Below, in pieces: positions 1 through 31,878 of a DNA stretch of 33,119 nucleotides. This DNA comes from Spirochaetia bacterium (lineage in GTDB: Bacteria > Spirochaetota > Spirochaetia > CADAEX01), in contig JAFXTY010000081.1 in the NCBI GenBank assembly GCA_017535435.1, forward strand, positions 1-33,119, in the 5' to 3' direction. The stretch's first letter is position 1, and every line of letters begins with the position of its first letter. Position numbers and translations under genes: made by a program. The notes under the pieces were generated by a model. It was not told where the DNA came from and searched no databases. It saw nothing but the letters and a program-made list of their open reading frames with translations.

Positions 1-472
1 CGTACAAGGTGCAGCTGCCTATTTTGTAGCCCCTCTCTCTGTAGTCCTTGAAAGTCCGGAAGACAGTATCGATCATCTCGGGAGCCATATTCTGGCTCAG
101 CCACTCCTGTCCTTTGCACAGGCGGTGCCGCTCAAAGCAGTATGGACAGCGGAAGTTGCAGTCGTATGTAGGCATGATGACCAGCCCGACGCCGCTTCTG
201 GAGAAGATAGTCCGGTATACGCGGCCCAAGAGCTTCAGGTCAGCCAGTTCGCCTTCCACGTCCTTGCAGGTAAGGTGACCACGCAGCAGGAGCCGTTCCC
301 TGATCGCCAGGGGCAGCTCGATAAAATTTCCAGCCTTAAGCTTATCTGCATCTTCCTTTGGAAGGATATCCATAGCGCCGTAAAGGCCATTTATCAAAAG
401 AGTCCTGTCTTTGATTTCCTCTTCTTTCCCGTCTATCAGAGGCAGGATTATTTCGTATGTACTTAATCTCAT
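1..472 (-). CDS. Radical SAM peptide maturase (RiPP), N-terminal part, cut by window edge
   Basis: The start is the ATG at 472, preceded by AGAAGG and lying 13 nt after the stop of the precursor gene at 486-767. I translated the 157 residues visible on the minus strand. The first ~95 residues form a leader-recognition-like or SPASM-maturase-type N-terminal region. A radical SAM motif follows, CNFRCPYC, with C105, C109 and C112 in the CxxxCxxC pattern that binds the [4Fe-4S] cluster used to cleave S-adenosylmethionine. The next residues (F113, E114) are typical of the peptide-modifying SPASM branch. Position directly downstream of a Nif11-type precursor indicates that it installs a radical-based crosslink, probably a thioether, on that peptide. 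The C-terminal SPASM cysteines, which would confirm the subclass, lie outside the window. No transporter or leader peptidase is seen in the window. Confidence 0.88.
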   Translation of the reverse strand, partial: MRLSTYEIILPLIDGKEEEIKDRTLLINGLYGAMDILPKEDADKLKAGNFIELPLAIRERLLLRGHLTCKDVEGELADLKLLGRVYRTIFSRSGVGLVIMPTYDCNFRCPYCFERHRLCKGQEWLSQNMAPEMIDTVFRTFKDYRERGYKIGSCTLY

Positions 473-485
473 TTATGATACCTTC

Positions 486-767
486 TTAGCAGCCCTTGAA
501 GTTTTCCCAGCCTACAGTACCGCAGACATGATGAGGACAGGAACTTTCACTTGGACAATTTGTCCAGCATACCCCGCCGGCAACCTTGTCCAGAGTAGCA
601 TCGTCCAGTTCGTAATCCTGAAGCTCTGTCATATATGCCTCGGCCTGTTCCTTGGTGATGACAACTCCCATCTTCTTTGCCAGGGCAATAAGCTCATCTG
701 CAGTCTTGCACTTCATTGCCATTGCAATCTGCTCTTTTGTCAGACTGCTTGTATCAAATTCTGCCAT
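486..767 (-). CDS. Nif11-type RiPP precursor peptide, Cys-rich core
   Basis: This 93-residue peptide has a 65-residue Nif11-like leader ending in the double-glycine site VAGG (G64, G65). The leader carries LTKEQ (9-13) and KTADELIALAKK (21-32), both typical of the family. The predicted 28-residue core (66-93) holds five cysteines (C67, C71, C77, C82, C93) in the pattern C-x3-C-x5-C-x4-C-x10-C, and begins V-C-W. A strong GGAGG ribosome site precedes the ATG. The radical SAM gene follows 13 nt later, so the two are almost certainly co-transcribed and the peptide is the maturase substrate. The name Nif11 reflects homology of the leader only and does not imply nitrogen fixation. The mature product and its activity are unknown; a ranthipeptide-like thioether peptide is my best guess. 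Confidence 0.9.
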   Translation of the reverse strand: MAEFDTSSLTKEQIAMAMKCKTADELIALAKKMGVVITKEQAEAYMTELQDYELDDATLDKVAGGVCWTNCPSESSCPHHVCGTVGWENFKGC

Positions 768-822: not shown

Positions 823-2466
823 TTAACTGTTGAACTTGTCCATATCTATCAGGTTCTCATGCCTTGCCACAATTGCAGTGCCCACCGCATCCCCTGTCAC
901 ATTTACAGTGCAGAGCATCATTCCTGCCAGAGGATAGAGCCCCATGACCAGGCTTATGGATTCTGCAGGAACACCTATCTGCTGAACCAGCAGCGACAGG
1001 CAGATGAGGGCGGCGCCAGGAACCCCGGGAGCTCCTATGGAGAGGACAAATATGGAGAAGAAAAGCGAGAGGAGTATGCTTCCTGTTATTGCGACTCCGA
1101 ATATTTTAGCCATGAAGAGAGTTGACACCATAAGGGCGACGCATGTGCCGTCCATGTTTATAGTGGCACCCAGAGGCAGCGAGAAGGAATAGACCCTTCT
1201 TGATATACCCATCTCCTCGGCCTGCTTAAGGGATGTAGGCAGTGTGGCATTGCTTGATGCAAAGGAGAAGGCTGTGATCATGACAGGGTAGTATTTCCTG
1301 ATGAAGCTGAGGGGGTTGAGTTTCCCCATTACCATAAGCAGGATGACATATACTCCAAGCATCAGGATATCGCCGAAGTAGAGGACAGGAACCCATACTA
1401 CGACATTGAGCAGCTGTGACAGGTCTATGGAGATCATCATCTTGGCCATGGAGCAGAACACCACAAGTGGAATAAAGCCTACAAGGGCAGTGGTGATCTT
1501 GGCGCATATACTGTTGGCCACAACCAGCACAGTCCGTATGAAGGGGAAGGTCTTGGTCAGGGCAGATGCGGCCAGCCCCAGTACTACAGCCATGAAGATA
1601 AGCTGCAGCATGTTGGAGGTCTGGAACGGAGTTATTATGTTGTTCGGGATGATGTTTATGATAGTGTCTTTTATGGAGATATCCATGTTGCTGCCGGCCG
1701 CAATGGTGGCTGATGCCGCATCGGTGACTGCAGAGGCAAGGGCAGGGGTGCCGATAGGGAATATCTGGTATGTGACATAACCCACCCCGATAGCCACCAC
1801 AGAGGTGAACATATAGAACAATATGATTTTCCCGGCTATCTTGCCCAAGGCCTTAAGGTCCCCGAAGTCTGCGATGCTGGAGGCCACCGAGCAGAAGACC
1901 AGGGGTGCCACTATCATCTTGAGGGCGTTCATGAACATTGTGTAGACAGGGGAGAATACGTAGTTGATGATTCCTTTTCCCACCTGTTCAGGAAGGACTT
2001 CATGTATCAGAAGACCTGCCGCCACACCACCTATCAGGGCAAGCAGTGTAAGTATAAGGTTCCGGAGCCGGGAGGCTTTGACCTTGATGGTGATTTTATT
2101 TATCCCCCGCACATAGCGGAAAGAGAAGTATTCACCGAACCACTTCGATACCAGATTGTGGATCACCTCGTTGGTATCTTCATCAGAGGATTCTTCCTTC
2201 AGCAGCATGGAATCCTCTATGGCAGAGGCATCAAACTTCTCTCCCTTGGCAGATATATGGATCTCCACATTTCCAAAGAGCCTGACGAATGAGAGTGTGA
2301 TATTTCCGGAAGCTTTTTCTATAAGGTTTGTCAGCACATCCTCGGTCATCATTGTTGTCCGCAGGATCTCTTTCTTCGGGACCTGATGCCGTGCCAGATC
2401 TGCTGATATAAGTTCTATTGTCTTAGGAACTTCGTTTAAGTCCGCAGCAATGTTTATCTTTTTCAT
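823..2466 (-). CDS. SDF-family (dicarboxylate/amino acid:cation) symporter with N-terminal RsbW-like domain
   Basis: A 547-residue protein in two parts. Residues 1-~130 are soluble and resemble a degenerate GHKL/RsbW-type fold: D43-x3-N47 fits an N-box, and KGEKFDA around 74-80 resembles a worn G1 box. From ~133 on it is an SDF (PF00375) sodium symporter, with the hairpin motif SSNATLP, NMDGT at 437-441 and NVTGD at 522-526, so the sodium-site residues are intact. The positions that in archaeal GltPh bind the acidic substrate (D394, R397) are here G515 and L518, so glutamate, aspartate or dicarboxylates are unlikely; a neutral substrate is more plausible. It is about 130 residues longer than ordinary SDF proteins. 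A short inverted repeat (2466-2483) overlaps the start region. A homologue with the same architecture lies at 30271-31878. Confidence 0.9.
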   Translation of the reverse strand: MKKINIAADLNEVPKTIELISADLARHQVPKKEILRTTMMTEDVLTNLIEKASGNITLSFVRLFGNVEIHISAKGEKFDASAIEDSMLLKEESSDEDTNEVIHNLVSKWFGEYFSFRYVRGINKITIKVKASRLRNLILTLLALIGGVAAGLLIHEVLPEQVGKGIINYVFSPVYTMFMNALKMIVAPLVFCSVASSIADFGDLKALGKIAGKIILFYMFTSVVAIGVGYVTYQIFPIGTPALASAVTDAASATIAAGSNMDISIKDTIINIIPNNIITPFQTSNMLQLIFMAVVLGLAASALTKTFPFIRTVLVVANSICAKITTALVGFIPLVVFCSMAKMMISIDLSQLLNVVVWVPVLYFGDILMLGVYVILLMVMGKLNPLSFIRKYYPVMITAFSFASSNATLPTSLKQAEEMGISRRVYSFSLPLGATINMDGTCVALMVSTLFMAKIFGVAITGSILLSLFFSIFVLSIGAPGVPGAALICLSLLVQQIGVPAESISLVMGLYPLAGMMLCTVNVTGDAVGTAIVARHENLIDMDKFNS

Positions 2467-4684: not shown

Positions 4685-4713
4685 TTGCATTCTACACCTG
4701 CCCAATGTATAAT
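4685..4713 (+). promoter_or_regulatory. Promoter overlapping the start of the AddB-AddA fusion gene
   Basis: TTGCAT (4685-4690), 17 bp, then a perfect TATAAT (4708-4713). The -10 box lies inside the first codons of the longest reading frame. If it is used, the ATG at 4705 cannot be the start, and translation would begin at the ATG at 4723 or later on a nearly leaderless mRNA. No ribosome site is visible before either ATG. Confidence 0.5.
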
Positions 4714-7700
4714 TCAATAGAAATGTATATTATCCCTAAAAAATATGATGCAGCCAAAATACGGCTGGAAATAAAGAAACAGATGGCAAAAGAGGGTAAG
4801 GAAGCTGTCCTTATCCCGGAACTTGGTACCCTTTACGATGTGGCTCTGGAGAAATCGGGCATAGGCCTTGGAAAAGGACTTGGAAAGGTAATCATGAAGG
4901 AGGACTTCTTCTGCCTCCTGGACCAGATTGATGAGCTTCCTGATAAATTCAAGAACAGCAACCGAAACTACAAAAGCGCAATCTTCGCTCTCCTTAACGA
5001 GATGTCCTTTGCCAGCGAAGAGCTGGACTCATACCCATTCCATGGCACAGTGCATGCCGCAGGCCTTACCAGGGAGCACTGTACTCTTATCTATAAGACA
5101 GTGCGGGAGCGGGGTTTCCTGTTCCGTGCCGAGGTATACCGCAAAGCTATTGAGGAGTTGGATAAGAAGGGTCTCCGGGAAGAGGAGGAATATATCCTTT
5201 ATCCAGGAGAGTACTATACTCATTTGGAGCAGCAGCTTCTGGAAAAGCTTGGTGCCAGCCCGGCCGATGCAGATGATGGCAACCAGGTCCTCTGCACCGC
5301 CATGTTCTCCGACGACACCACTGGTGATTTCCAGATTTCTGAGCCGGAGAAAATGGTGGGGTTCCTTAAGGCAGACTCCATTATGGAGCAGTATATTGCA
5401 GTAAAAGACCACATTCTTGCCACCATGAAAAATGATCCGTCTTTAAGGCTGGATGACTTCTGCCTGGTGCTTGGCGGCGATGATTCTCTTTCCCTGTGCA
5501 CATCATATTACGAATCCATAGGGTTTCATCCAGTCTCATCTGCATCAGTGCAGGCCGAGACCCCTCTGCTTGATGGCCTGAATCTTATTTTCTATGCCCT
5601 TTCAGGCGATATAGAGAAACTTATTCTGTACTTCAACCGTCATAATCCTGATTCAAAAGTGACATATGACCCCACATACGATTTCGGGGATTTTTGGAAC
5701 TTCAGCAAAAAACTGGCCAAAAGCGACGGCAGCAGATTTGACAGATTCCGGGATGTGCCTCCTGCATTCAAAGAATGGATCCAGAAATTCTCTGGTCTTG
5801 ACAACAGAAAACAGTCTGCCTCAAAGCATTTAAGACAGCTTCAGATCCACCTTAAGAAGCTTGATGCCGAGGGAGAAAGCCTCTATGAATATGAACCTTC
5901 GCTAAGGCAGATATTCAAGAGCGGGAAAGGGGAGGATATAGACATATCCCTCAAGGATCTGGTGGAATATTTCAAGAATATTCTGGCCGGCCGTAAGCGG
6001 AATCTTATCTCCACCTGGGACGATGGAATAGTGCTGGTGAAGATGGGTGAATACATTCCCAAGTGCCGTCATCTCTATTTTGCAGACCTGGAGGAGAAGA
6101 CCTTCCTTAAGGACAAGATGCCGAACCTGCTCCTCTCTTCTGAAGAGCATGATAATTTCAACACCGAAGTCTACGGCTGCACCAAGGAGGAGCACCTTAA
6201 AAAATGCTTTGCTCAAAGTGTTGCCCGTTCTCAGCGTATTCTCTTTGTCATTCCGAGCTACGACGAAGGTACCGTTGTTTCTGAATATGTGGAGAACGCT
6301 CTCCGGCTGTTCCCTGTGGAGAACCGCCCCGTAAAGGTTGTGTGGGGCAATGTTCCGGAATTCAGACATCCCTTCTTCCGCACATTCAGGAATACTGTTT
6401 GGGAAAATGCGGCGCCGGAACTGGCTCCTGCATCGTCCGAGGATTTTTTCAAGCCTCATGTGAAAGAGGGAGACCCTCTTGAGTATGTGCTTGGCAAGCT
6501 GAGCAGCGCCACAAGGATAGAGCCTTTCATGCGCTGTCCTGCCAGATTTATCTACGACTGTCAGGCACCAGGCACTCAACTGAAGGACGAGATCCATTTT
6601 ACCAGGGGCAATGCTTTCCATATGTTCTGCGAAATGTTTTTTTCTAAGCAGAACATTAAAGTTTTCGCCATGAACAATCCGGACCTGGTACAGGAGGTTG
6701 CACTGTATCTGAGCAATCTTCCCTGTGATCCGGAGCTGGCTGCCTATATGGACAGCCTGGATGTCCGGGGCATGTTCAAGACAGTCTGCGACAAGTACAG
6801 TGATCTCAAGCTTAAAGATACCGATCTTCACACCTACCTTTCATTTATCTGCCGCTGCATGAAAGATCTTATGGGTGACTGCGACAGCTCATCCATACGG
6901 CTTGAGGTTTTTATCGGAGGCGCCCCGCTTCTGTCTGATCCCCCTGTTGCTGTGGGAGAGGGCTATATCGACATGATGTTCTGCACCACCAATGGCGAGG
7001 TGGTTCTTGTTGATTTCAAATCAACTGATATCAAGGAATTCCCTGAGGATGTGAATTCCATTTCCAATGTTCAGCTCCTAATTTATTCCCATATTGTGGA
7101 GGAGGCTCTTAAAAACCGTGATTTCTCTGTGTTCCAGCCCACCGATGAGCAGCGAGGCAGGATGAAAGAGAAAGGGAAGGATGAGTCGTCTATCCTGAAT
7201 CCAGGCTACTTTGATTCAATTGAGGCAGATGCACCTGTCAGCGCTTTCTATCTTTCCTATAAGGGTAATGATAATTACAGGGCGGTCAGCGGAATCTCAA
7301 GCCTTGAAGATCCATACGGCAGGTTTGAGAACAAGCTGAAAGACCTGCTGGGCCAGGCTGCGAGAAATGAGTTCAAGCCTTCCTACAACAAGGACTGTAT
7401 ATTCTGCCCGATCAATTCCTTCTGTCCCGACCGGGAGAACGGTATGAGCATGGATGCCCTTTATCAGAGGCTTAATCTGAAGGGACCATTCTTCAATCAG
7501 TATCCTGTGCCTAAGGAGCTGACCTCTGCAGCTTCAGGCCCATCCAGTCCTGCTGACGATCCGGTCAGGATAATACAGTTTGCAGAGCGGGCAAAATATT
7601 CTGCAGTTGCCGACACCAGCAGTGATATCATAATATCTGCCGGGGCAGGGGCCGGTAAGACCGAGGTCCTTACCACCCGTTATCTCAATCTCCTGCTGAG

Positions 7701-10683
7701 CACAGATGCAGAACTGGAGAATATCCTGTGCATAACCTTTACCGAGAAAGCGGCTGGAGAGATGAAAAAGAGAATCTTTGCCAAGCTGCGGGACACCCTT
7801 TCCCTGGGGGCCTTCTACTCTTTACCTGCCGATGGACAGGGGCAGGAGGCCTATAAGCTTACCCCGGCCCAGATCCAGAAGCTGCAGAAGGCCAGGAAGA
7901 ACTTCTTCCGCAAGAACCGCATCTCCACATTCCATTCCTTCTGCCTGAACATGCTTACCAGGTATGAGAAGGAGAATCCGGCTTCCCAGCGGGATCTTAC
8001 CAGTGCTGTAGTTGAGGACTTTGTCATCCGCGACAAGAAGATTGCTATTATCAGCAGTCTCATAAACACCTTCGCTGAGTCTGACGAGGCATTTGCCCGG
8101 TGGGCTTTATATCTTCCTCTGTACTTCAGGACCGATAATGGAGAGGGTGGTGTGGCTCTGGATATCCTGAATCTGCTGAACAGCATGAAGCTCAGCGGTA
8201 TGCCTCTGACCGAGGAGAGCAAGGATTATCTTGCCCATCAGTTCAAAGAAAGAAAGCAGGCTGCGATAAATGAACTCTGGGATAAGTTCGAGATTCTGCG
8301 GGATAATCTGCTGGAGGCTCTTGAGCAGCTCAGGTCAGAAGAAACCAAGCCAGGTAATATAAAGAAACTGGATGCAGAGATAGAGGAGGTCACCAGAGGA
8401 AGCTGCGGCGATGCCGGCCGATATCCATATAAGACCAACCCTATGCTCAAGTCTCTCCTGAAGGCTTACCAGAGCATTCCATGCCCCAGTGCCGAGGAGT
8501 GCTGCACACTGGCGGAGGAACAGAATCTTCATTCCATCCTGTTCGAGATCCTGCTGGTGGCAGACCGCATGATTGAGCAGTATAAGATAGAGAACAGCAT
8601 CATAGAACTTTCAGATTACCACCTGAACCTTATCTCCCTTCTGGAGAACAAAAAGATTCTTAAAAAGATAAAGGATGAGCTTAAGTACATTATGGTGGAT
8701 GAGTTCCAGGATACCAACTGGCTTCAGAAAAAGATTCTGGACTCTCTCCATGATGAGAATAATCATCTGTTTGTGGTGGGGGATCTTAAGCAGTCTATAT
8801 ACCGGTTCCAGCAATGCGACAATCAGATATTCAAACAGTACCGGGACCAGGATTCCATGCTCTATATCACTTTTCAAGACAACTTCAGGTCTGTTAAGCA
8901 GATTGTAGATTTCAACAACAGATATTTTTCCGAGAACCTGGTGCAGGAATACAGGATTATCCCCAACACCAGCAAGAATCCCGAGAAGCCTGAATTCAGC
9001 ATTCCACGTCGTCCGGAAGCCACATGGCCAGTTGTCAATGTGGTTGGATTCGGATACTTGAATGATGACTTCAAAGAACTGGCCACAAGAGAGAAGAATG
9101 CTCTGGTGAGGGAGCAGGAGGCTTTCTTCATTGCCCGTACCATTGCCGCAACAGGCAAGGAGAATTACGGGAAGTGGGGAATCCTGGTCCGGGAATATAC
9201 AAATATGAACTTTATTCTGGATGCCCTCCAGCGTCTGAATATTCCATATTCTTTCTGCATAAAGAAGGATTTCTTCCGGCAGAGCGAGATTGTGCAGGTG
9301 CTTCTGGTGCTGCAGGTGCTCTATGGCTTCCTGCCACAGGAGATTCTGGCCGCCAACCCGGTCCTGTCTGAATTTGTATCTGGTTATGACCAGAAAGAAA
9401 AGGGATTCTGCTATGCAGTAAGCTCCATTATGAAACTGCCTATGTATGCCCCTGTCCGTCCTATGCTGCATCAGCTTCTGCTGCAGTGCCGCGATTTTGT
9501 CCGTCAGCTGGGGGAATGTCCTGAGGATATAATTGTCCAGCTGCTTAAGTTTGCCGACGAGAACAGCAAGGAAATCAATGTATCGGCTCTGGAGAACGGT
9601 GTCAGGATTATGACAGTCCACAGCTCCAAGGGGCTTGAGTTTGACTACCTCTTTGTGTCAAAGATAACCGACTACACCGGAAAAGGTGGTTTCGGAGGCC
9701 CCAGGAGCAGCATAGACTTCATAAACTATGTGGATGAATACAACAATCAGATCATAGACTATGACATAACAGGGTTCAGAAAACTGGTGAAGGATGAGCG
9801 CCCCCTGCTCTATGACGCATGGATAAAGGATAAGAATACAGAATTCGAGAGCGAGGAGAAGGGCAACCTGCTCTATGTGGCATTCACCCGGGCCAAGAAG
9901 CATCTGGTGGTGACAATGCAGAGCGGAAAGCTTACAGAGGATGGCCTTGCAGATGTACAGCCTGATGTGAACTGGTTCAAGAATATAGTGGGCAACCTGC
10001 CTTATTATCCAGAAATTGTTCAGAATCCAGAATTTGATATCAGCCTTATAGAACCTGTGCTCAACAAGGATAAGCCTGCGCTGATGTATCCCGTGGAGCA
10101 GAAGGAGTTCCCGGCACCTGAGCTGGCCACTGTTTCTGTTTCCCGGCACCTGGATGCCATGGAAGAGGAATATGATCTGGATGATAAAATCACAGATGCC
10201 GATGATGAAGCACCTGAGGCTGCAGGATCCAAGGCCAGCGAGGTGGGCACCGCAGTCCACAGCTTCTTCGAGAAGAATGTGGGCAACCTTTCCAGTGCCA
10301 AGCCTGAGGATTTTCCTGTCCCAGAATCTATCCGATCCAGGTTCCTTGCCTTTGCAAAGGCTGGACTTGCGGTGCCGGAGTACCATGCCCTGGTGTCCGA
10401 TGCCGAGAAGCTTATACCGGAGAAAGCCATGATATTCCGCACCCCGGAGGGCAAACTCCTGAACGGCGTCATAGACCTGATTGTGAAGAAAGGAAACTCA
10501 GTCACAGTGCTGGACTACAAGACCCACTCCGGCAGCAGCCTGGATGACAATACCCTGGAGCGATATAAGAAGCAGGTGGCCCTCTATGCCCATGGTCTTA
10601 AGAGCATCTTCCCAGGCTGCACTTTCGACTGCTGTCTCCTGGTTATGTACTCCACCGGCAAGTCCGAGCTGGTGTGGTGCTAA
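4705..10683 (+). CDS. Single-chain AddB-AddA-like ATP-dependent helicase-nuclease
   Basis: A 1992-residue protein combining both subunits of an AddAB recombination enzyme. The N-terminal ~930 residues are AddB-like. They hold a RecB-type nuclease with D756 and D770-F-K772, framed by iron-sulfur cysteines C611 and C898-x2-C901-x5-C907, the same CxxC-x5-C spacing as the AddB cluster. No Walker A is seen in this half. A Ser/Pro/Ala-rich linker (~935-952) leads to a UvrD/AddA helicase with Walker A AGAGAGKT (979-986), DEFQDTN (1332-1338), NFRS (1393-1396), TVHSSKGLEFD (1637-1647) and YVAFTRAKKH (1724-1733). The C-terminal nuclease has H1852, D1924 and D1937-Y-K1939. Role: processing double-strand DNA ends for homologous recombination and degrading foreign DNA. 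The start may be the ATG at 4723 rather than 4705. Confidence 0.92.
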   Translation: MYNSIEMYIIPKKYDAAKIRLEIKKQMAKEGKEAVLIPELGTLYDVALEKSGIGLGKGLGKVIMKEDFFCLLDQIDELPDKFKNSNRNYKSAIFALLNEMSFASEELDSYPFHGTVHAAGLTREHCTLIYKTVRERGFLFRAEVYRKAIEELDKKGLREEEEYILYPGEYYTHLEQQLLEKLGASPADADDGNQVLCTAMFSDDTTGDFQISEPEKMVGFLKADSIMEQYIAVKDHILATMKNDPSLRLDDFCLVLGGDDSLSLCTSYYESIGFHPVSSASVQAETPLLDGLNLIFYALSGDIEKLILYFNRHNPDSKVTYDPTYDFGDFWNFSKKLAKSDGSRFDRFRDVPPAFKEWIQKFSGLDNRKQSASKHLRQLQIHLKKLDAEGESLYEYEPSLRQIFKSGKGEDIDISLKDLVEYFKNILAGRKRNLISTWDDGIVLVKMGEYIPKCRHLYFADLEEKTFLKDKMPNLLLSSEEHDNFNTEVYGCTKEEHLKKCFAQSVARSQRILFVIPSYDEGTVVSEYVENALRLFPVENRPVKVVWGNVPEFRHPFFRTFRNTVWENAAPELAPASSEDFFKPHVKEGDPLEYVLGKLSSATRIEPFMRCPARFIYDCQAPGTQLKDEIHFTRGNAFHMFCEMFFSKQNIKVFAMNNPDLVQEVALYLSNLPCDPELAAYMDSLDVRGMFKTVCDKYSDLKLKDTDLHTYLSFICRCMKDLMGDCDSSSIRLEVFIGGAPLLSDPPVAVGEGYIDMMFCTTNGEVVLVDFKSTDIKEFPEDVNSISNVQLLIYSHIVEEALKNRDFSVFQPTDEQRGRMKEKGKDESSILNPGYFDSIEADAPVSAFYLSYKGNDNYRAVSGISSLEDPYGRFENKLKDLLGQAARNEFKPSYNKDCIFCPINSFCPDRENGMSMDALYQRLNLKGPFFNQYPVPKELTSAASGPSSPADDPVRIIQFAERAKYSAVADTSSDIIISAGAGAGKTEVLTTRYLNLLLSTDAELENILCITFTEKAAGEMKKRIFAKLRDTLSLGAFYSLPADGQGQEAYKLTPAQIQKLQKARKNFFRKNRISTFHSFCLNMLTRYEKENPASQRDLTSAVVEDFVIRDKKIAIISSLINTFAESDEAFARWALYLPLYFRTDNGEGGVALDILNLLNSMKLSGMPLTEESKDYLAHQFKERKQAAINELWDKFEILRDNLLEALEQLRSEETKPGNIKKLDAEIEEVTRGSCGDAGRYPYKTNPMLKSLLKAYQSIPCPSAEECCTLAEEQNLHSILFEILLVADRMIEQYKIENSIIELSDYHLNLISLLENKKILKKIKDELKYIMVDEFQDTNWLQKKILDSLHDENNHLFVVGDLKQSIYRFQQCDNQIFKQYRDQDSMLYITFQDNFRSVKQIVDFNNRYFSENLVQEYRIIPNTSKNPEKPEFSIPRRPEATWPVVNVVGFGYLNDDFKELATREKNALVREQEAFFIARTIAATGKENYGKWGILVREYTNMNFILDALQRLNIPYSFCIKKDFFRQSEIVQVLLVLQVLYGFLPQEILAANPVLSEFVSGYDQKEKGFCYAVSSIMKLPMYAPVRPMLHQLLLQCRDFVRQLGECPEDIIVQLLKFADENSKEINVSALENGVRIMTVHSSKGLEFDYLFVSKITDYTGKGGFGGPRSSIDFINYVDEYNNQIIDYDITGFRKLVKDERPLLYDAWIKDKNTEFESEEKGNLLYVAFTRAKKHLVVTMQSGKLTEDGLADVQPDVNWFKNIVGNLPYYPEIVQNPEFDISLIEPVLNKDKPALMYPVEQKEFPAPELATVSVSRHLDAMEEEYDLDDKITDADDEAPEAAGSKASEVGTAVHSFFEKNVGNLSSAKPEDFPVPESIRSRFLAFAKAGLAVPEYHALVSDAEKLIPEKAMIFRTPEGKLLNGVIDLIVKKGNSVTVLDYKTHSGSSLDDNTLERYKKQVALYAHGLKSIFPGCTFDCCLLVMYSTGKSELVWC

Positions 10684-24383: not shown

Positions 24384-25400
24384 ATGATTAAAAGACTTCT
24401 TTTTCTTGTTATATGTCTCCTTGCTTTGATGCCTGCGGCAGCTGAGCCGAAGGATTATGCAGCTATTGATTTTGTAGGCGATGTCTCTTTGGCAGACAAC
24501 TGGGCAGTAGGCTGGCGGTATGATGCGAGAAAAAAGAAAGTTCTGGGCATTCTTTCCAAAGATATAGTGGATATTATGACCAAGAGCGACTTTATGGTGG
24601 TGAATTCCGAGTTCGCTGTCAGCAACAGGGGTAAACCTGTAGAAAACAAGAAGTACACTTTCCGGGCAAGACCCGAGCGGCTTAACATATATCACGAGAT
24701 GGGGGTGGATCTGGCCCTTCTTGCGAACAACCATGTTTATGACTATGGAAAAGAGGCTTTTCTGGATATGTTCGATGCTTTCGATGCAGTGGGAATTCCG
24801 TACATAGGGGCAGGGCATGATCTGGAAGAGGCTATGAGGCCTTATAATGTGGTTATCAACGGGTATAAGTTTGCGATATTAAATGGCTCCCGGGCCGAGA
24901 AATACAGGCTTACGCCAGGGGCTACTGCCTCTGAGCCGGGAATATTCCTGTGCTATGACACAACCAACATGGTCAATGCCATCAGGAAAGCAAAGGAAGA
25001 TAACGATATCGTCATAGCCGTGATCCACTTCGGAAAAGAGCTTTCTCATGACCTTGAGAAGGAGCAGGTGGAGAGTGCACGGCTCTATATAGACAGCGGC
25101 GCCGATATGGTGGTGGGGCACCATGCCCATGTGCTTCAGGGGGTAGAGTTCTATAAGGACAAACCTATAATCTATAACCTGGGAAACTTTATTTTTAACG
25201 CCGATACCGTTGATACGGCTATATTCGAAGTGCGGCTCGATGCAGACGGCAAGATGGAGTATTATATTATCCCTGCGATTCAGGATGAAGTTTATACCCG
25301 TCTGGCAAATCCAGAAGAGAAAGCCAGGATAATTAAAGATATTAATTCTTGGAGTATAAATGCGTATCTGGACAGCGACGGCAGGATGATGAAGAAGTAG
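24384..25400 (+). CDS. CapA family (PGA_cap) exported metallophosphatase-like protein
   Basis: A 338-residue protein with a cleavable signal (cut near AAAEP, residue ~20). The fold is the calcineurin-like CapA family: FVGDVSL (~31-37), NSEFAVSN, LLANNHVYDYG, AVIHFGKELSH, the metal-binding VVGHHAHVLQG and IIYNLGNFIFN. CapA proteins take part in poly-gamma-glutamate synthesis or anchoring, but many homologues act on other extracellular polymers. No capB, capC or pgsE is seen nearby, so the polymer role is unproven. No ribosome site is obvious at this start. The RiPP precursor gene follows 73 nt downstream. Confidence 0.88.
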   Translation: MIKRLLFLVICLLALMPAAAEPKDYAAIDFVGDVSLADNWAVGWRYDARKKKVLGILSKDIVDIMTKSDFMVVNSEFAVSNRGKPVENKKYTFRARPERLNIYHEMGVDLALLANNHVYDYGKEAFLDMFDAFDAVGIPYIGAGHDLEEAMRPYNVVINGYKFAILNGSRAEKYRLTPGATASEPGIFLCYDTTNMVNAIRKAKEDNDIVIAVIHFGKELSHDLEKEQVESARLYIDSGADMVVGHHAHVLQGVEFYKDKPIIYNLGNFIFNADTVDTAIFEVRLDADGKMEYYIIPAIQDEVYTRLANPEEKARIIKDINSWSINAYLDSDGRMMKK

Positions 25401-25473
25401 TATTGATATCAGCTGTTATTTTTTCTTGACGGCAGAAAACAGCCTATATTAAAGTGAAATTCAGGAGGTAATA

Positions 25474-25713
25474 ATGGCAAAGATTAATAGAAGTGAACTT
25501 ACCAAGGAACAGCTTTCAAAGGCCCTGGAGTGCAAGACATCAGATGAACTGATTGCCCTGGCAAAAGCAGAAGGCTACGATATAACAAAGGATGAGGCCG
25601 AGGCTTATCTTGCCGAGATGGCCAACATGGAACTGGACAACAAGGATCTGGAAAAAGTGGCCGGCGGGCTCAATGATATATGCTGGCGGCTCCCTTGCGG
25701 TGATCACTTATAA
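25474..25713 (+). CDS. Solitary Nif11-type RiPP precursor, short CWRLPC core
   Basis: A 79-residue peptide preceded by a very strong AGGAGGT ribosome site. Its 65-residue leader matches the one at 486-767 without gaps (about 38 of 65 identical by hand count, including KT-DELIALAK) and ends in the same KVAGG. The core (66-79) is only 14 residues, with C70-W71 and C75. The C-W dipeptide just after the GG site is also found in the other core. No modifying enzyme is adjacent, so I infer modification in trans by the radical SAM enzyme 25 kb away or one elsewhere. Its 3' end overlaps the convergent Nudix gene by 10 nt. Confidence 0.88.
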   Translation: MAKINRSELTKEQLSKALECKTSDELIALAKAEGYDITKDEAEAYLAEMANMELDNKDLEKVAGGLNDICWRLPCGDHL

Positions 25714-26132
25714 TTTTTTAAAAATTTCTTGATTTCCCGCTTTACTCCAAAGGCTAGCTTGTAGTCACCAAGTTTGCTGATAGGGATGAACTTCATCTCG
25801 GAGAATTCACGAATCTCTGTGGGCACTGGAAAATCAGAAGGAACCTCATACATATAAGTTTTCCATTTAAAAAATGGTAATCTTATATAGTCTGTGACAG
25901 TTTCTCCAATCTGCACTGCTTTTACATCGCTACACAGGTCTAATCCTGTTTCTTCCTTCAATTCCCGCCCTGCAGCCGTAAATAAGGTTAAGTCCTTTAA
26001 TTCATAACCACCGCCTGGAATGGACCATTTGCCTGCCTGCGGCTTATATTTCCGATTGCCCAGCAGAACCTGATATTCACCATCTGCTTTTTTGAACAGT
26101 GCAACACCTGCACCTTTGTATGGAATTTTCAT
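25704..26132 (-). CDS. Nudix hydrolase
   Basis: A 142-residue pyrophosphohydrolase of the MutT superfamily. The Nudix box starts at KWSIPGGGYE and ends RELKEETGL, with the metal-binding catalytic glutamates in place. The glutamate normally 8 residues before the R of REL is a leucine here, with Asp one position earlier, a small departure from the consensus. Substrate unknown: family members hydrolyse damaged nucleotides, nucleotide sugars or ADP-ribose. It lies 15 nt after the small gene at 26148-26384, probably in one operon. Confidence 0.92.
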   Translation of the reverse strand: MKIPYKGAGVALFKKADGEYQVLLGNRKYKPQAGKWSIPGGGYELKDLTLFTAAGRELKEETGLDLCSDVKAVQIGETVTDYIRLPFFKWKTYMYEVPSDFPVPTEIREFSEMKFIPISKLGDYKLAFGVKREIKKFLKNYK

Positions 26133-30270: not shown

Positions 30271-31878
30271 ATGCAGAAAAGATTTGATATGAAAGGCCAA
30301 GAGACAATTCAGGAGATTCTGGATTTTAACCGTCAGACTCTTAAAGATTTTAAGCTTGATTCAAAAGAGAGACTGCGTGCAGAGCTGACATGCGAAGAAG
30401 TGCTGATGCGGCTGATCGAGCATGGTGATTTTTCCAAGAAAAAAAATATTTCCCTCAACATTATTAAATTTTTAGGCAATGTCAGCATAGATATGCGGGT
30501 TCCTGGAAATGATTTTGAATTTTTGCCCAAGCCTGATTTTGATGATATAGAGAACGATGATGAGACAGCAGAGGCCATACAGAGCATTATTTTACGATCC
30601 CTTGGCGACAAGATAAGCTTCCGGCATTCAGGTGATTATAATACTGTCCGGATCCAGGCTTTCCGCTCCCAGTATTTCAATCTGTATTTAATATTGACAG
30701 CAATGATCCTGGCAATCATTACAGGGACTGCCATGAAATATTTCCTGCCGGAACAGGTCTGCGGTTTCATTAATGAGAATATTTTCCAGTCGTTCAGCAC
30801 ATTGTTCATGAACGGTCTTAAGCTGTGTGCAGTACCGGTTGTCTTCTTTTCTATTGTCACCTGCTTTACTCAGACAGATAGTTTGTCCGGAATAAAGAGG
30901 ATTGTTTTCAAGCTGTTTGCTGTTTTTTCTGTTCTGATGGTCTTTGCTTCATTCTTAGGGTACTTGGTGGTTAAGCTGTTCAAAACAGGAGTCGGAATAC
31001 ATCTGACTGCCGCTTTGAGCTCCGATGCAGTTCAGGGCAATCTGCTGTCAATAAGGAATGTTCTTGTTGATGTGGTGCCGAACAATATCATCAGACCCTT
31101 TGCAGAAGGGAATATGATTCAGCTGATAGCTCTGGCAATTCTGATCGGAGTGGCATGTGGAGCCTGCAGGATAAAAATTGTCTCTTCAATCTTTGATGAA
31201 GTCAACAGGCTTTTTATGAAGATTATCGGATTCTTCATACATCTTCTTCCGCTGTTTGTCTTCTGTTCTGTTTCATCTATGCTGATTATGACAGGATCCA
31301 AGGTGCTGCTTTCTGTCCTGGGAATTTTCTATACTGCTATTATTGCCAATCTGCTGCTTTTCCTGCTTTATAGTCTTATTACTGTTTTCCTTGGGTTTAA
31401 TCCTTTTATGGTGCTTAAAAAATCGATGCAGATGCTGTTGACCAGCTTTACAACCGCTTCAAGTATAGCCTCTATGCCGGATGCCATGCAGGCTGCTGAG
31501 AATCTGGGTGTATCCCCCAAAATGTATAAGTTCTCTATCCCGATAGGAATGACTATTTTTAAAAGCACTTTGTGCCTTTATATAGTGATTGTTGTCTGCT
31601 CAATAGCAAACATTTATGGTATTGCTATGCCGTTCCTGAAGATTATTTCGCTGGTACTGTCTACAGTTATTCTTGTAATAGCTATGCCTGGAATACCGGG
31701 GGTGGGTATTATCCTGCTGTCATCGCTGTTGACAATGGCAGGTTGCCCAATTGAGGCCCTGGGGCTTATAGTGGGAATCGATCCGATTATTGATATGCTT
31801 GGAACACCAGGTGGGGTATTCGGCGTTCTGATAGCAGTCCTGACTGTGGCAAAAAGCGAGAAGATGTTAAAAAAATAA
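30271..31878 (+). CDS. SDF-family transporter homologue with RsbW-like domain and lost ion-site motifs
   Basis: A 535-residue homologue of the protein at 823-2466 with the same two-part layout. Residues 1-~130 form the soluble RsbW-like domain, with TCEEVLMRLIEHGD in the N-box position (Asn replaced by Arg, His kept). The SDF membrane domain follows. Its coupling residues are altered: the NMDGT position reads FKSTL (430-434), and the positions equal to GltPh R397, N401 and D405 are G511, G515 and V519, although D504, D508 and T512 are kept. SSxxTLP is changed to SSIASMP. Ordinary sodium-coupled uptake is therefore doubtful; a uniporter or ligand sensor is possible. Length and membrane pattern are intact, so it is not simply decaying. 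Confidence 0.85.
   Translation: MQKRFDMKGQETIQEILDFNRQTLKDFKLDSKERLRAELTCEEVLMRLIEHGDFSKKKNISLNIIKFLGNVSIDMRVPGNDFEFLPKPDFDDIENDDETAEAIQSIILRSLGDKISFRHSGDYNTVRIQAFRSQYFNLYLILTAMILAIITGTAMKYFLPEQVCGFINENIFQSFSTLFMNGLKLCAVPVVFFSIVTCFTQTDSLSGIKRIVFKLFAVFSVLMVFASFLGYLVVKLFKTGVGIHLTAALSSDAVQGNLLSIRNVLVDVVPNNIIRPFAEGNMIQLIALAILIGVACGACRIKIVSSIFDEVNRLFMKIIGFFIHLLPLFVFCSVSSMLIMTGSKVLLSVLGIFYTAIIANLLLFLLYSLITVFLGFNPFMVLKKSMQMLLTSFTTASSIASMPDAMQAAENLGVSPKMYKFSIPIGMTIFKSTLCLYIVIVVCSIANIYGIAMPFLKIISLVLSTVILVIAMPGIPGVGIILLSSLLTMAGCPIEALGLIVGIDPIIDMLGTPGGVFGVLIAVLTVAKSEKMLKK

Follow-up and report, generated by a model that had tools for sequence, protein, structure and literature searches.

A Nif11-leader peptide precursor in a rumen spirochaete and its candidate remote radical-SAM/SPASM maturases

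The gene at 25474-25713(+) of the window (the whole stretch of 33,119 nucleotides that was analysed) very probably encodes an N11P precursor, that is, a RiPP precursor with a Nif11 leader, whose core would be modified by a remote, leader-bound maturase before export through an NHLM apparatus. In the mechanism that we propose, the helical leader of ~65 residues would be bound by the RRE-like N-terminal domain of a radical-SAM/SPASM maturase encoded on contig C65, C58 or C31/C28, this enzyme would cross-link the short core at a Cys-aromatic site, and the NHLM apparatus (HlyD adaptor, C39-peptidase ABC1, ABC2 and TolC) would cleave after Gly-Gly and secrete the modified peptide. A leader common to all as the handle would free precursors from any fixed place in the genome and allow their cores to differ. 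The evidence comes from the leader family, the dispersal of its genes and their co-occurrence with the maturase, from the export genes, and from the architecture of the maturase and the motif statistics of the cores.

The target gene and its paralogues

The host genome (G000) is a rumen Spirochaetia MAG of 1.70 Mb in 82 contigs, 99.4% complete. The target gene starts with ATG and encodes 79 residues, namely a 65-residue leader with VAGG at its end (25474-25668(+)) and, directly after it, the 14-residue core LNDICWRLPCGDHL (25669-25710(+)). The leader passes the cut-offs of both TIGR03798, the curated N11P model (35.4 bits against 32.3), and PF07862, the Nif11 model (27.8 bits against 23.8), and a Gly-Gly site closes the conserved region ahead of a short variable core, as in N11P precursors. 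An AGGAGG ribosome-binding site is located at 25463-25468(+), preceded by a promoter-like stretch with TTGACG at its start (25426-25455(+)), which aligns with the stretch 5′ of the orthologues in G003 and G004; a promoter scan near the target within the window gave one site, at the level of chance. Syntenic orthologues are present in four sister genomes, and the ORF is confirmed as real. On one side of it lies a gene for a PGA_cap protein (24384-25400). On the other is a NUDIX gene in convergent orientation (25704-26132), which shares 10 bp with the 3′ end of the target; neither neighbour encodes a modifying enzyme, and no RNA families or tRNAs were found in the window.

The first precursor of the window, at 486-767(-), encodes 93 residues with the 28-residue core VCWTNCPSESSCPHHVCGTVGWENFKGC. 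The target and 486-767(-) leaders are identical at 38/65 residues (58%; BLASTP E 2e-26), and identity of the target leader to the other full-length leaders in the genome is 55-70%. A sequence-only reading of this DNA had described the leader length and this identity, the 14-residue core containing CWRLPC, the strong ribosome site and the absence of a neighbouring enzyme, all of which hold. It had also placed a C-W pair directly after the GG in both cores; the pair lies at core positions 5-6 in the target and 2-3 in the first precursor. Its further description of the target as a lone second precursor is ruled out by the leader search of the whole genome, which gave 32 matches, belonging to no fewer than 25 separate precursor genes spread over nine contigs (C1, C26, C31, C39, C50, C58, C65, C75 and C78). 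Subgroups can be recognised among these leaders, for example MPIDK and MEKLDLNS.

Read-through of TAG was considered for some leader matches and rejected: the matches fall in Nif11-like helices at the C terminus of Hint-fused precursors, and since the helices end at the stop with the next gene following, recoding need not be invoked. Such precursors, with a Hint (intein/hedgehog-like) domain 3′ of the core, were seen at L031:420-1211(-), L032:490-1272(-), L032:3-467(-) and L033:18168-18947(-), as well as in G001 and the Selenomonadaceae loci L131 and L140, and most carry a second Nif11-like helix after the Hint domain. Splicing looks unlikely, because the block-B histidine position is occupied by Gln and a terminal His-Asn was not seen. 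In addition, several leaders (L031:4150-4401(-), L031:5965-6318(-) and L081:5098-5445(-)) carry a conserved peptide, MDEIENLFKQSDFSSENIGLETRIWNRI, as an in-frame fusion at their upstream end, and dicarboxylate symporters with a long N-terminal extension lie beside precursor loci (window 823-2466(-) and 30271-31878(+); L184:12733-14418(+)). The window also holds a single ORF of 1992 aa at 4705-10683(+), in which, by eye, an AddB-like half seems to precede one resembling an AddA/UvrD helicase.

The maturase family and its distribution

Contigs C65 and C58 each carry, amid their precursor genes, the gene for a radical-SAM/SPASM maturase, of 506 aa and 503 aa respectively. The N-terminal 157 residues of a third, 73% identical to the C65 maturase, are encoded at 2-472(-) of the window, where the gene is cut by the contig end. 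The stretch C28:10086-11177 covers maturase residues 154-501 and the ends of C31 and C28 agree in 14/15 bases, so the rest of the window maturase probably lies at the end of C28, a joining that we can only infer, given how alike the paralogues are in this region. Only these three proteins in the genome were detected with the SPASM model TIGR04085; PF13186 added a fourth, unrelated SPASM protein on C69. The gene for this radical-SAM protein (L049:1078-2499(+)) lies in an AT-rich stretch and possibly belongs to another peptide system.

An AlphaFold model of the maturase, built on an alignment of 48 sequences, had a mean pLDDT of 94.2, and its residues 1-90 form three strands followed by three helices, a beta3-alpha3 arrangement which we take to be that of RiPP recognition elements (RRE). 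The closest solved structures are CteB (5wgg/5why), anSME and SuiB, and the family has invariant cysteines at the three radical-SAM and at seven SPASM positions. None of the NCBIfam equivalog cut-offs was reached: the best score was to TIGR04463 (rSAM_vs_C_rich; 156 bits against a cut-off of 525), and the protein fell below the models TIGR04064 for nif11-like peptide radical SAM maturases (62.6 against 518.7), YhhB (67-68 against 445) and FxsB (55 against 370), both for characterised families that form three-residue cyclophanes, the related DynA model for dynobactin (106 against 450), and PapB (105.7 against 340). A phage origin of the maturase was discarded, the viral contigs having yielded a single distant match at 27% identity.

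Of six further genomes in the genus, five have 15-33 leader matches each, and none were found in one genus member and four sister-genus genomes. Precursors and family maturase occur together in 6/6 genomes and are both absent from 5/5. Within the phylum, the maturase family was present in 2/296 drawn Spirochaetota genomes, both of the host genus. When the maturase alignment was scanned against ~85,000 species genomes, the matches came from rumen spirochaete MAGs and from rumen Selenomonadaceae, Acidaminococcaceae and Lachnospiraceae, a Saccharofermentans and a Coriobacteriaceae MAG, the members outside the spirochaetes being ~44-57% identical to the maturase. Isolates with the family include Succiniclasticum ruminis DSM 9236, Selenomonas ruminantium HD4 and Lachnospiraceae AC3007 and AD3010. 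The AC3007/AD3010 locus is compact, encoding a partner protein of ~550 aa, three or four precursors, one maturase and then HlyD, ABC1 and ABC2; in the cultured AC3007, one maturase is flanked by four precursors whose cores differ. In the tree, the maturases of the spirochaetes group as a single clade (100/99) within a mostly Bacillota group, a placement that would fit gene transfer within the rumen.

The proposal that one maturase serves scattered precursors stands in part. The precursors are scattered, their cores diverge and the enzymes lie at a distance, and in G003, which carries a syntenic target orthologue and 15 leader matches, a single family maturase is present for about a dozen or more precursors. 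For the host genome, which has three family maturases besides the unrelated SPASM protein of C69, the 'one maturase' wording oversimplifies. These three enzymes, together with leader subgroups such as MPIDK and MEKLDLNS, leave some room for a dedicated pairing in which each maturase has its own leader subset and the target one specific partner instead of belonging to a shared pool. We regard such pairing as possible but doubtful, since the precursors of G003, the target orthologue included, have a single family maturase between them, and since both leader subgroups are found around the same C65 maturase.

Core composition, orthologues and export

The cores of 175 non-redundant precursors were grouped into 127 core clusters and compared with shuffles, a procedure that corrects only partly for shared ancestry. 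The results showed that C[WY] is present 63 times where 24 are expected, and C[WY]xxC 18 times where 2 are. C-aromatic-x(2,4)-C spacings are common across the precursor family. Cores with neither Trp nor Tyr are far rarer than expected (3 against 27), which marks an aromatic residue as a near-obligatory element; cores without Cys are no rarer than chance (13 against 17). N, D or E stands at +2 after C[WY] in 28/63 cases against 12.4 expected, and is not enriched after other aromatics (22/105 against 20), so that a general cyclophane rule is weakened. D or E at +4 from Cys is likewise not enriched (28/243 against 32 expected). As read from these sequences, the statistics would slightly favour an aromatic-centred bond, an i/i+2 cyclophane, over a Cys thioether without being decisive; by analogy, CteB, the nearest relative of the maturase in fold and sequence, speaks against a cyclophane, as it makes thioethers. 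At the aromatic(i)-x-X(i+2) positions, the target core reads W-R-L.

The four syntenic orthologues, in the sister species G002, G003, G004 and G006, lie near the same TAXI-TRAP genes, and none has an enzyme next to it. Their cores read CWSNCPFARPF, CWDNCPFDAPL, CWDNCPYLH and CWTNCPTDKPF where the window has CWRLPCGDHL. Unlike the orthologues, the target lacks N, D or E at Trp+2, the Asn there having been lost in the window species, and its second Cys is kept but shifted one position further. The lack at Trp+2 means that this copy might be a weak substrate, or in decay. One alternative is accordingly that the target is a decaying copy of a CWxNCP gene, with a leader kept by homology and a core out of the second-Cys register that is no longer a productive substrate. 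The divergence from the G003 orthologue, with 54/65 leader residues identical against only 3/14 in the core, would agree with decay, as would the 10-bp overlap of the 3′ end with the convergent NUDIX gene. We nevertheless consider decay unlikely, since the frame is intact, the ribosome site is strong, the promoter-like stretch resembles that of the orthologues, the C-W pair and a second Cys are retained within a range of spacings usual for the family, and the orthologue cores vary freely too. A functional precursor is the reading that we prefer, and these comparisons show its core to be fast-changing.

Export genes of the NHLM system were identified on C28, where ABC1 with its C39 peptidase (996 bits against a cut-off of 853) and ABC2 (760 against 709) are encoded. 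An HlyD homologue lies beside the exporter on C28 and C46, the C28 copy being partial and in front of ABC1, and the score for the NHLM HlyD model was obtained with the G002 protein (298 bits against 156); the exporter that accompanies N11P precursors (TIGR03794, 03796 and 03797) is thus represented. The C28 exporter is adjoined by a periplasmic binding protein, a TolC-like protein and a ~536-aa protein with a weak SPASM-like end. The C39 peptidase occurs in 5/6 producer genomes and in none of the non-producers; in G006, which has precursors and maturases, the C39 transporter was not detected, perhaps because the genome is fragmented. LanC-like proteins (PF05147) and YcaO (PF02624) were each found in 0/6 producer genomes, and lanthipeptide or thiazole chemistry was rejected on that basis. 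An alternative in which recognition of the leader falls mainly to the exporter, with the core secreted without modification as a class II bacteriocin-like or signalling peptide, is very unlikely: no modifying enzyme co-varies with such leaders as strongly as the NHLM exporters do (Haft 2010, PMC2887384) and some family cores lack Cys, but the maturase and the precursors co-occur perfectly, the maturase adjoins precursors in clusters, and the cores obey a strong aromatic/Cys grammar.

Several further genes recur at these loci. A DUF7005 protein with an HECTH motif lies beside maturases (L031:1189-2028(-) and L147:7003-7893(+)), occurs in 5/6 producers and no non-producers, and may be a pathway protease or other metal enzyme. 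A protein of 536-582 aa that belongs to no curated family and has a weak SPASM-like end recurs beside maturase and exporter (L182:8104-9714(+), L183:17412-19157(-), L137:5462-7150(+) and L138:5408-7066(+)) and is likely a partner subunit. A B12 radical-SAM protein adjoins the exporter at L187:1403-3358(-), L183:2425-4320(+) and L147:10040-11977(+); since the G002 copy scores above the cut-off of the RiPP C-methyltransferase model TIGR03975 (457 bits against 282), some cores may also be methylated. The same HlyD/ABC1 stretch appears on two contigs at 94.7% identity (L182:6-681 and L187, C46), which means either two export loci or mixed strains.

Cores common to rumen phyla and relation to known systems

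Near-identical cores were found in Spirochaetota, Negativicutes and Clostridia (L038:11053-11289, L122:3498-3749, L137, L138, L129, L130, L147 and window 486-767). Several sibling cores are 82-100% identical across phyla, with leaders at ~59% and synonymous codons drifted; for 486-767(-), core identity is 82-86% in Acidaminococcaceae and Selenomonadaceae. Conserved cores include GCYPDC.KDYCFEN, YNICENYGQACPSYINVG and KTCYMVDGC.FKCGTLKDC. In six core families common to spirochaetes and Bacillota, 97/104 core residues (93%) are identical against 227/386 leader residues (59%) between same-core partners (Fisher p ~1e-12); these families were picked for high core identity, and the frequency of such conservation is not to be read from them. 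Where residues are identical, the codons agree as well at 32/91 core positions (35%) and 96/218 leader positions (p 0.16, no significant difference). Core codons being no more shared than leader codons, the identity of the cores does not come from recent transfer of core DNA, and a recent transfer, whether of entire genes or of just the cores, is unsupported. For most of the six families the leaders are ~70% identical to own-genome paralogues, and in 5/6 they are closer to these (median 0.64-0.73) than to the same-core partner (0.47-0.62). The exception is the leader of 486-767(-), at 0.57 to its own paralogues and 0.59-0.62 to same-core partners.

Given this identity across phyla in the face of leader and codon drift, those sibling cores are not hypervariable. 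The first precursor falls in this conserved-core class and the target, whose own core varies, outside it; the sequence-only description of a 'combinatorial' system is an overreach for the system as a whole. A tentative interpretation, to which we give less than even credence, is that rumen phyla (Spirochaetota, and the Negativicutes and Clostridia of the Bacillota) share a vocabulary of secreted, radical-SAM-modified peptides whose cores are under purifying selection while the leaders drift. That the leaders would be tuned to the machinery of each genome is part of this interpretation and equally tentative.

Dispersed Nif11 precursors and natural combinatorial biosynthesis are already known from cyanobacteria. 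The account of Haft, Basu and Mitchell (2010) covers Nif11-leader precursors located far from their enzymes, the NHLM exporter and natural combinatorial biosynthesis (PMC2887384). The present system resembles theirs in its TIGR03798 leader of ~65-70 residues, Gly-Gly site and variable core, and in its large paralogous sets of precursors distant from enzymes and TIGR03794/03796/03797 exporter. It differs in having a radical-SAM/SPASM subfamily in place of LanM or cyclodehydratase enzymes (LanC and YcaO were not found in the producers), in its rumen spirochaete and rumen Bacillota hosts, and in the conservation, rather than hypervariability, of several cores across phyla. The prochlorosins and synechococsins, with 29 precursors for ProcM and 79 for SyncM, likewise combine Nif11 leaders, tens of scattered precursor genes, a small genome and few promiscuous maturases (PMC10783134); their chemistry is LanM lanthionine formation, whereas no LanC-like protein was found in the six producer genomes.

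Triceptides, the three-residue cyclophanes of XncB, OscB, MscB, YxdB and YhhB, are made by SPASM radical-SAM maturases at an aromatic with N, D, K or R two residues on, comparable to the CWxN and CYxD seen here (PMC11002830); a Nif11 leader is not noted in that account, and the +2 polar preference here follows only C[WY]. The thioether maturases CteB, the closest solved fold, and PapB share the RRE plus SPASM layout and Cys-rich cores; the present maturase scores below the PapB cut-off and its precursors lack the +4 D/E enrichment of that type. Among radical-SAM/SPASM RiPP maturase families, TIGR04064, tied to nif11-like peptides, and TIGR04463 are further comparisons, and the maturase is well below membership in both. 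A survey of 8,160 rumen genomes reported many sactipeptide and bacteriocin clusters, and no mention of spirochaetes was found in its text (PMC8241843). Our search found no published account of this radical-SAM variant, which is weak evidence as subscription literature lay mostly outside it; the maturase subfamily below every existing equivalog cut-off, the phylum and the Cys-aromatic core grammar look new.

Dispersed Nif11 precursors with a promiscuous maturase are a model of natural combinatorial chemistry whose well-studied cases are lanthionine systems of marine cyanobacteria, and a radical-SAM counterpart in small-genome rumen bacteria would, judging from the genes, be an independent system with a different bond. 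It can be tested in cultured relatives (Selenomonas ruminantium HD4, Succiniclasticum ruminis DSM 9236 and Lachnospiraceae AC3007 and AD3010). The presence of nearly the same mature cores in unrelated phyla also turns the long-standing question of what such peptide sets are for into a directly testable one: if a shared vocabulary exists, its peptides would be conserved inter-species signals or ligands and not an arms-race library, and the target would be one of the faster-changing words.
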